Source: Halorussus litoreus (GTDB lineage Archaea > Halobacteriota > Halobacteria > Halobacteriales > Haladaptataceae). Taken from it: 64,000 bases of DNA. The position numbers and the translations under genes were made by a program. Positions 5,522 through 64,000 of this stretch are shown here, piece after piece. Under the pieces are notes generated by a model that worked only from the letters and a program-made list of their open reading frames with translations, ran no database searches and had not been told where the DNA came from. Positions within the stretch are counted from its first letter, which is position 1; each line of letters opens with the position of its first letter. The DNA is taken from assembly GCF_003382685.1 (NCBI RefSeq), contig NZ_KZ859504.1:17265-81264 (forward strand), written 5' to 3'.

Positions 5522-6222
5522 CGCGCGCCCTCCCGGACGGTCGTTCCCGAATCGGCCTCGACGGTCGACTCGTATCGCGCGGCCAGCCGTTCGACGTCGC
5601 GACCGTCGACGCGGACCCGTCCCCTGTCGAGCAGGACGACCCGGTCGGCGTCCCGCTCGACCGCCCGGAGGTCGTGGGTGGCCACCAGTACGGCGCGCCC
5701 GTCGTCGGCCAGCGCCGACCCCGCCTCGAACACCCGGCGGGTCATCGTCGGGTCGAGGCCGCTCGTGGGTTCGTCGAGCACGAGCAGGGCGGGGTCGCCC
5801 ACGCTCGCCACGGCGAGGCCGAGCAGTCGCCGCATGCCGCCCGACAGCGCCCCGACCTGGCGGTCGGCCACGCCCGCCAGCCCCACGCGGTCGAGGAGTC
5901 GTTCGGGGTCCGGCCCGGCCTCGACCGCGGCCTCGAAGTACGCCACGGTCTCGGCGACGGTGAACTCCGCGCGGGGCGTGAACGCCTGCGGCAGATAGCC
6001 GACGCCGTGGCCCCGGTCGGGGTCGGGTCGGGCCACCTCGCCCTCGGCGGGCGTCTCCAGTCCGGCGGCGACCCGGAGCAGGGTCGACTTGCCGGCCCCG
6101 TTCGGGCCGACGACCGCCGTGAGATCGCCGACCGCGACGTCGAGGGAGAGGTCCGCGAGGACGGTCAGGTCGCCGTATCTGTGCGTCAGGTTCGAGGTCG
6201 ACAGGGCGGTGTCACGTGGCAT
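5518..6222 (-). CDS. nosF: ABC transporter ATP-binding protein, NosF-like
   Basis: The 234-residue cytoplasmic ATPase has Walker A GPNGAGKST near residue 38, signature LSGGMRR near residue 130, Walker B LLVLDEPTSGLDP near residue 150 and the switch histidine in ATHDLR. The start at 6222 lies inside the last codons of the NosD gene (11-base overlap), and its stop overlaps the NosY start. Order nosD-nosF-nosY matches known maturation operons of nitrous oxide reductase. It presumably powers the NosY channel. No nosZ is present in this window, so the true client copper enzyme is inferred. Confidence 0.85.
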   Translation of the reverse strand: MPRDTALSTSNLTHRYGDLTVLADLSLDVAVGDLTAVVGPNGAGKSTLLRVAAGLETPAEGEVARPDPDRGHGVGYLPQAFTPRAEFTVAETVAYFEAAVEAGPDPERLLDRVGLAGVADRQVGALSGGMRRLLGLAVASVGDPALLVLDEPTSGLDPTMTRRVFEAGSALADDGRAVLVATHDLRAVERDADRVVLLDRGRVRVDGRDVERLAARYESTVEADSGTTVREGAR

Positions 6223-62737: not shown

Positions 62738-63661
62738 ATGGACGTCGAGTTCCTCGGCGGAGCCCGGGAGATCGGCCGGAGCGCCGTCCTCGTGGACGAC
62801 TCGCTGTTGCTCGACTACGGGATGGCGACCGGCAACCCGCCGTCGTTCCCGGTCGGCGACCCCGACCCGGACGCCGTGGTCGTGAGCCACGGTCACCTCG
62901 ATCACGTCGGCGCGATCCCCTCCCTGCTCTCCGGGGACGCTCGGCCGCCCATCCACTGGACGCCGCCGACGCGCGACCTGACCCGCGTGCTGGCCGAGGA
63001 CACGCTCAAGTTACATGGCGGAAGCTACGACTGCCCGTTCACCGAGGCCGAGATCGCGCGCCTCTCACAGGTCTCGGAGGTCCACGGCTACCGCGAGACC
63101 TTCAGCGCGGCGGGCTACGAGATCACGTTCTTCGACGCGGGCCACATCCCGGGGAGCGCGCACGTGCTCGTCGACGACGGCGAGACGCGCCTGCTCTACA
63201 CGGGTGACTTCCACACCGGCGACCAGCAGTTGCTGTCCGGCACCACGGCGCGACCGGACGCGGACGTGGTGATCACCGAATCGACCTATTCGGACGTGGA
63301 CCACGACCCGCGAGCAACCGTGGAGGAGCGATTCGCCGAGAGTGTGAAGACGACGATCTGGGAAGGTGGGACGGTCGTCGTCCCCGCGTTCGCCATCGGG
63401 CGCACGCAGGAGATACTGCTGGTCTGTGAGGCCCACGACGTCGATTGTTACGTCGACGGGATGGGCCAGCGGGTTACCCGGATCGTGCGACAGTATCCGG
63501 ACTTCGTGCGCGACGCCGACGCGCTCCGGCGCGCGAAGTCCAACGCGCGATTCGTGACGGGGAGAGACGGCCAGCGCAAGCGCATCGCCGACCAGAACAC
63601 GGTGATCGTGACGACCAGCGGGATGCTCGGAAACGAAGATCCGCTAGCAGTTGCGGGTTAA
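62738..63661 (+). pseudogene. beta-CASP metallo-beta-lactamase RNase, truncated at its 3' end
   Basis: The 307-residue frame has intact MBL motifs: SHGHLDHVG near residue 50, AGHIPGSAHVLV near residue 138 and LLYTGDFHTGD near residue 154, then the beta-CASP motif A region ITESTYSD near residue 175 and VVVPAFAIGRTQE. It matches archaeal RNA-processing exonucleases (COG1236-like), usually about 410 residues. The protein stops nine residues after TTSGML, so about 100 residues with the last beta-CASP motifs are missing. The break coincides with the start of AT-rich DNA. It is probably inactive, unless the shortened form has another use. Confidence 0.8.
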
Positions 63662-63708
63662 GGGAATGACGAGCCGTAGTTCTCAGAAGGGGGCTATAGA
63701 TTTTATAG

Positions 63709-64000
63709 CTATGAGGATCCTGGAGAATAGGATGCATTGTACGCTGCTTCGTCTAGATCCTGATTTACTTCTTGTATAGCTAAGCCGTGATCAATATCAT
63801 GATCGATGTATCTGAGAATTATACTAGAGAAAACGACTCGCGCCCGCTCAGTGAGTTGTGGTGCAGAATAGTTGGTGAGTTCATCATTTTCTGAGGCATT
63901 AATCGCTTGCTCTAAGGGTTTATCTTGGTGGACAATTTCCCCGCGGACAGAGTATAGACCCTGCAAGAAGTTCCGTATACGCTCACGGTCCCACGAAATC
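63709..64000 (-). CDS. partial HEPN-like (ApeA-like) protein, runs off the right edge
   Basis: The frame is open from the window edge to a TAG at 63709 and gives at least 97 C-terminal residues. RIRNFLQGLYSVRGEIVHQ contains an R-x4-H motif (RGEIVH) in a helix, and TERARVVFSSIILRYIDH follows. This pattern resembles Apea-like HEPN domains, many of which are RNases in defence systems. The DNA and codon use are much more AT-rich than the rest of the window, a sign of transfer. The N-terminal part, which would show other domains, is outside the window. Confidence 0.55.
   Translation of the reverse strand, partial: ISWDRERIRNFLQGLYSVRGEIVHQDKPLEQAINASENDELTNYSAPQLTERARVVFSSIILRYIDHDIDHGLAIQEVNQDLDEAAYNASYSPGSS

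Follow-up and report, generated by a model that had tools for sequence, protein, structure and literature searches.

An attachment site inside a beta-CASP RNase gene of Halorussus litoreus and the probable integrative defence element that carries a full-length copy of that gene

The interrupted beta-CASP gene and the ends of the insert

The window analysed here is a stretch of 64,000 nucleotides from Halorussus litoreus, corresponding to positions 17265-81264 of contig C4 (NZ_KZ859504.1), and window coordinates equal C4 coordinates minus 17,264. The source genome consists of 75 contigs (3.84 Mb), and C4 runs on beyond the window. The features at the right edge of the window and in the continuation of the contig are the following.

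Window 62738-63661, plus strand: 5' part of the host beta-CASP RNase gene (KH-less, aCPSF2-like), 307 aa, domains Lactamase_B and partial Beta-Casp
Window 63622-63628 (C4:80886-80892), unstranded: attL core GATGCTC, 7 bp, duplicated at the right end
Window 63629-63640, plus strand: left arm of the element, GGAAACGAAGAT, with its inverted counterpart TTTTCGTTTCC ahead of the right-end core
Window 63709-64000, minus strand: C-terminal 96 codons of a HEPN-like gene, first gene inside the left end, variable cargo
C4:79999-80901: host beta-CASP 5' part, 76% identity to a full-length homologue
C4:83276-84454: tyrosine recombinase (integrase), 2.4 kb inside the element, Phage_integrase 35.6 bits (cut-off 27.1)
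C4:119561-120814: complete borne beta-CASP gene, from the whole-genome search with the full-length homologue
C4:123171-123506: host beta-CASP 3' part, 78% amino acid identity to the full-length homologue
C4:123173-123179: attR core GATGCTC; the missing host 3' part resumes from 123173

The host beta-CASP frame extends from an ATG at 62738 to a TAA at 63659-63661 and encodes 307 aa, compared with approximately 410-417 aa in intact relatives, so that the premature stop noted in the preliminary description, about 100 residues early, is real. The MBL portion is complete, the protein terminates directly after TTSGML, and the DFSAHAD and NHGD stretches found in full-length copies are missing. The final 10 codons (GNEDPLAVAG) and the stop codon of the truncated frame are derived from the element. 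At the junction the GC content falls from about 0.66 to 0.42-0.48, it stays at 0.41-0.60 across 42 kb, and it returns to 0.66-0.72 at about 123.2 kb of C4. The composition drop formerly placed at 63660 was therefore confirmed as a fall in GC, with the exact junction slightly further left, at the core (63622-63628).

When a full-length homologue was searched against the whole genome, three pieces were obtained, all on C4: the two host parts and the complete gene. The 3' part that had been expected past the island is thus present, and since it sits 42 kb away, a sequencing frameshift near 63630 was ruled out as the cause of the truncation. Ordinary core genes in the right-hand region were also ruled out, the region being a defence island. 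Because its C-terminal motifs are missing, the split host gene is presumably dead.

The insert measures 42,287 bp from core to core and lies within the beta-CASP gene. Its left junction reads ACCAGCGGGATGCTC followed by GGAAACGAAGATCCG, and its right junction ACATTTTCGTTTCC followed by GATGCTCTCGGGCGGG. An empty site is provided by the uninterrupted gene of a genome of the same genus (G026), which has a single GATGCTC (L123 5568-5574); the left-side match ends at 5574 and the right-side match begins at 5568, and this 7-bp overlap is the core. The arms TTCGTTTCC and GGAAACGAA are inverted copies flanking the core; the site predicted after excision (attP) would read TTCGTTTCC-GATGCTC-GGAAACGAA and form an inverted repeat centred on it. 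Inverted arms around a core are the pattern expected for a tyrosine recombinase site, and the recombinase of the element would exchange attP with the genic attB. The strain itself showed neither an excised circle nor attB; the distribution among genomes points to a mobile element.

The border of an inserted element proposed earlier is accordingly borne out by gene halves at both ends and by the duplicated 7-bp core, and the att repeats, integrase, and defence genes to be looked for with it were all found in the continuation of C4. We conclude that the edge of the window is very probably the attL of a site-specific integrative defence element of 42,287 bp that splits the beta-CASP gene, bears a copy of it, and carries a cargo similar to BRIGADE Type II and Dpd systems.

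Distribution of the element among haloarchaea

The attL pattern, composed of core and arm, was detected in 7 of 369 haloarchaeal genomes, and a reversed control pattern in none of them. In five of the seven it lies inside the beta-CASP gene: the window genome (G000), G050, G172, G250, and G177. Independent insertions at the same site elsewhere comprise those of G050 and G172 and the decayed ones of G250 and G177; related or decayed versions occur in four genomes besides the window genome and G050.

The clearest counterpart is that of G050, a one-contig chromosome from another family (f8), in which the same element splits that genome's own beta-CASP gene at the same codons. Its identity to C4 is 94.6% over 83275-116453 and 89.6% over 118155-120815, its ends are GATGCTCGGAAACGAAGATTCG (attL) and TCTTCGTTTCCGATGCTC (attR), and a full-length borne beta-CASP copy is present. 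In G172, from a third family (f13), the element is spread over three contigs, one with attL and a 79% identical integrase, one with attR, and one with the full-length copy. A diverged relative of 83 kb in G212 (C1:1814234-1896990, from L127 15235 to L129 16991) has the same core, different arms (ACTAATGAAGATC), and a 48% identical integrase. The beta-CASP copy of the G212 element is broken by two stops, and a separate intact copy lies 11 kb outside its attL.

In G177 (C1, L184 13351-19982) the beta-CASP halves are 5.3 kb apart and the attL arm is retained. No full-length beta-CASP copy was found in this genome, in which two aCPSF1-like genes are present. A split gene without a full copy indicates that the gene is dispensable there, that rescue is not universal, and that the borne copy is not always kept. 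Judged by eye, the 5.3-kb insert encodes a SWIM-type protein and a PIN-like/antitoxin-like pair.

These observations bear on an alternative reading, which takes the host gene for a decaying pseudogene, the AT-rich part for variable DNA of an ordinary kind, and the second full-length copy for an unrelated paralogue that lies 39 kb away by chance. Truncation and composition change alone would fit it, and G177 shows that the gene can be lost. However, at the far end the 3' half has kept an intact sequence, the 7-bp core is duplicated with inverted arms, and the complete chromosome of G050, from another family, has the identical architecture. The two-ended junctions together with the G050 replicate refute this reading, and we consider it hardly credible.

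In the two remaining genomes with the attL pattern, G026 (C10, L121 11917-11942) and G354 (C5, L183), core and arm are joined to DNA other than beta-CASP, and these joins are possibly secondary insertion sites. G354 already carries a resident beta-CASP gene lacking the core. Among the other integrases (34-51% identity) whose positions could be compared, that of G212 alone lies close to a beta-CASP gene. Double beta-CASP matches, seen in many genomes, mostly look like one gene interrupted by a short insertion or a frameshift, as judged from scores and from opened cases. In G027, another Halorussus, two beta-CASP stretches about 10 kb apart (L040 4742-5047 and 14718-16007) comprise a full gene whose altered core reads AATGCTA and a 3' fragment, with no recognised integrase between them. 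A scan of viral contigs for the integrase and the attL pattern yielded no relatives, and the beta-CASP matches listed from plasmids and phages were aCPSF1 or distant MBL proteins.

The borne beta-CASP copy and mosaic resident genes

The most unusual feature of the element is its own full-length, recoded copy of the gene that it splits, which lay outside the view of the preliminary description. MBL, Beta-Casp, and RMMBL domains score above cut-off in the beta-CASP protein, and its best NCBIfam model is aCPSF1, below cut-off. Typical resident genes have GGGATGCTCTC at the place where the borne copies of G000, G050, and G172 have GGAATGCTGTC; these synonymous changes abolish the GATGCTC core. With its core altered in this way, the borne copy should not be a target of its own element. 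Among the 46 full-length genes examined, all element-borne copies lack GATGCTC, and most resident genes have it. About a third of the resident genes lack it as well, a sizeable minority, and deliberate recoding can therefore not be claimed.

The borne copy would take over the function of the split host gene, which would explain why the insertion is tolerated. Alternatively, the element may be real and the copy be ordinary cargo or a defence effector instead of a stand-in. A beta-CASP nuclease, Cas14, occurs in type VII CRISPR, and aCPSF1 and Cas14 are among the NCBIfam matches of the copy, all below cut-off; moreover, three small conserved genes accompany the copy, and G177 lives without a full-length one. 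Against this, the copy shares 76-78% identity with the gene that the element interrupts, far more than with aCPSF1 (35%), it lacks the core, and in several genomes a gene with element-type sequence is the sole full-length copy and occupies the native locus. We therefore regard a role as mere cargo or effector as improbable and favour the stand-in function.

A full-length gene with an altered core was found in G250, G354, G100, G390, G156, and G099, with native flanks confirmed for five of them. Windowed identities for G250, G354, and G100 show genes that over about the first 1,000 nt are mostly 81-98% like the element copy and that in the last stretch have 53-59% identity to the element copy and 79-86% to native genes, with breakpoints just 3' of the att site. 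In G390, G156, and G099 the genes are element-like chiefly mid-gene, and G018 is a partial case, element-like in the middle with the GATGCTC core kept. In phylogenetic trees, the 5' part of the G250 gene was placed inside the element copies and the 3' parts of G354 and G100 among native f8 genes; the borne copy of G172 stood apart from those of G000 and G050. Furthermore, G250 has a native 5' half joined to an element arm, an attL scar, 10 kb from its mosaic gene.

Mosaic resident genes in relatives, one of them still near an attL scar, point to gene replacement after insertion, and the simplest reading is that the borne copy recombined with the host fragments. Homologous recombination between them would delete much of the element, and its product would be a chimeric resident gene no longer carrying the core. 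Haloarchaea recombine across species, and the mosaics might instead reflect ordinary gene conversion or allele exchange among them, the element having captured one of two existing allele classes. In line with such cross-species recombination, element-like sequence occurs in several families, and the G018 gene combines an element-like middle part with a retained core. The scar of G250, 10 kb from its mosaic gene, and the breakpoints of G250, G354, and G100 immediately 3' of the att site speak against it. As a general explanation we consider gene conversion rather unlikely; it may hold for the mosaic genes without scars.

Returning to replacement by the borne copy, we tentatively propose that certain haloarchaeal defence elements form a class whose members interrupt a conserved RNase gene, bring along a full copy immune to their own integrase, and, once decayed, leave this copy as the resident gene, a proposal slightly more likely to fail than to hold. 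If true, hosts would be converted to an insertion-proof allele, and replacement of the gene would at the same time shut out similar elements arriving later.

Cargo genes and comparison with known systems

The genes carried between the two ends are arranged as follows.

Left end, in order: HEPN-like protein (509 aa); 187-aa protein; integrase; small proteins; winged helix protein; Csa3-like CARF regulator
Operon, in order: proteins of 310, 309, 1025 (DpdH-like ATPase), 278, 1842 and 1819 (YprA-type helicases), and 658 aa (PLD)
After the operon: exonuclease-III-like protein; DpdA-DUF6884 (967 aa); TGT (344 aa); 298-aa protein; BrxD-like ATPase
Right end, in order: pentapeptide-repeat ion channel; three small proteins; beta-CASP copy; HNH; DGQHR/DpdB-like protein

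The DpdA protein matches NF041059 with 273 bits (NCBIfam cut-off 200) and is fused to a DpdC-like DUF6884 domain, and a second TGT is present. The two large helicases are about 40% identical over their N-terminal half and have DruE/DrmA/BrxHI-like matches. The 658-aa nuclease matches PLDc_2 with E=1.5e-5 and 25.2 bits, slightly below the cut-off of 27; matches to DpdH and DpdJ are far below their cut-offs, and a DpdB-like gene occurs in the variable cargo only. Of 394 haloarchaeal genomes, 52 have relatives of DpdA, and between certain families these are 98-99% identical. A counterpart of C4:86448-115889 with about 95% identity occupies other loci in G085, G304, and G351; the regions read in these three genomes contain neither an integrase of this type nor a beta-CASP copy, which indicates that this part moves as a unit between carriers. 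Two loci with this type of DpdA were also noted on plasmid NZ_CP122313.1 of Halospeciosus flavus (L073, L077).

The genes at the ends, HEPN/187 aa and HNH/DGQHR, are swapped for others in G050 and thus form variable cargo. The DGQHR (DpdB/DndB-like) and HNH pair of the right end (C4:120895-123117, L006 6896-9118) has a 38% identical counterpart adjoining the att arm in G026 (L121 9492-11794), and the pair may be a mobile two-gene module. The full HEPN-like gene (C4:80973-82502, 509 aa) is absent from the sister element of G050 and has homologues in 30 of 394 genomes; a broken second homologue (39%) lies at C12:72280-72825 of the window genome. The R-x4-H motif on which its HEPN-like character had been proposed is real and conserved, R431 and H436 being invariant in 22 of 22 aligned homologues, within a modelled helix at 417-437. 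A HEPN match by profile or by Foldseek was not obtained. No Pfam or PADLOC profile was significant or reached a curated cut-off, and Foldseek against the PDB gave no significant match for good models of the whole protein and of its C-terminal domain (pLDDT 81 and 91). The sole relevant matches to profiles of solved structures were to the HEPN anti-phage protein ApeA (PDB 9hxm, 9hxb), over the R-x4-H helix and at a similar C-terminal position; these are weak (E 0.02-0.07, about 30 residues), and no fold match to ApeA was found. On the conserved motif, the protein is probably a HEPN protein.

The exact ends, attachment site, and integrase are now given for an element that spreads BRIGADE/Dpd-like defence among haloarchaeal families, and they show a mobile element targeting the middle of a conserved protein gene. 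The prediction that follows is that the integrase drives exchange at GATGCTC, that the borne gene can complement, and that element alleles come to replace those of the host.

The defence module, which had been suspected to be undescribed, mostly is not: the main cargo corresponds to BRIGADE Type II, which a 2025 preprint (PMC12458937) had predicted for haloarchaea. According to its authors (Bell et al. 2025 preprint; PMC12458937), this system is exclusive to halophilic archaea and combines a 7-deazaguanine cluster with a PLD nuclease and a pair of similar YprA helicases. By gene content and the published description, the cargo matches a BRIGADE Type II/Dpd-like modification-restriction system, and by analogy with its family it would label the DNA of the host with a 7-deazaguanine base and attack DNA that lacks this label. 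Common to both are a pair of YprA helicases of the ARMADA/Druantia-like type, a TGT cluster resembling that of Dpd, and a PLD nuclease. The helicase pairs of the preprint are described as nearly identical (PMC12458937), whereas those described here share about 40% over the N-terminal half; in addition, the DpdB-like gene lies outside the conserved core, and this core adds the Csa3-like CARF regulator, the BrxD-like ATPase, and a second TGT. The BRIGADE Type II-like system is now tied, from sequence comparison, to a defined integrative element with known ends that carries a full copy of its split target.

Similarity to Dpd is seen in DpdA above cut-off, the DpdC-like domain, weak DpdH and DpdJ matches, and the PLD nuclease. 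In contrast to Dpd, the helicases are Druantia/ARMADA-like and not canonical DpdJ, DpdB-like sequence is confined to the variable cargo, and several genes of the canonical set (DpdB, DpdC, DpdD-K, canonical DpdJ) were not found in the element. BRC systems with TGT (PMC12839542) were rejected because they need PglZ and HerA, neither of which was found among the island proteins.

With regard to integration, archaeal tyrosine-recombinase elements and proviruses, such as virus BJ1 in the HMG-CoA reductase gene (PMC8371274), likewise combine a recombinase with an att core in a coding gene. Such elements usually restore the target gene by providing its end at the junction, whereas here a complete separate copy lies near the far end of the element. 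The defence system had already been predicted in the literature; what appears unusual is an RNase-splitting element with a recoded copy of its target, apparently left behind.
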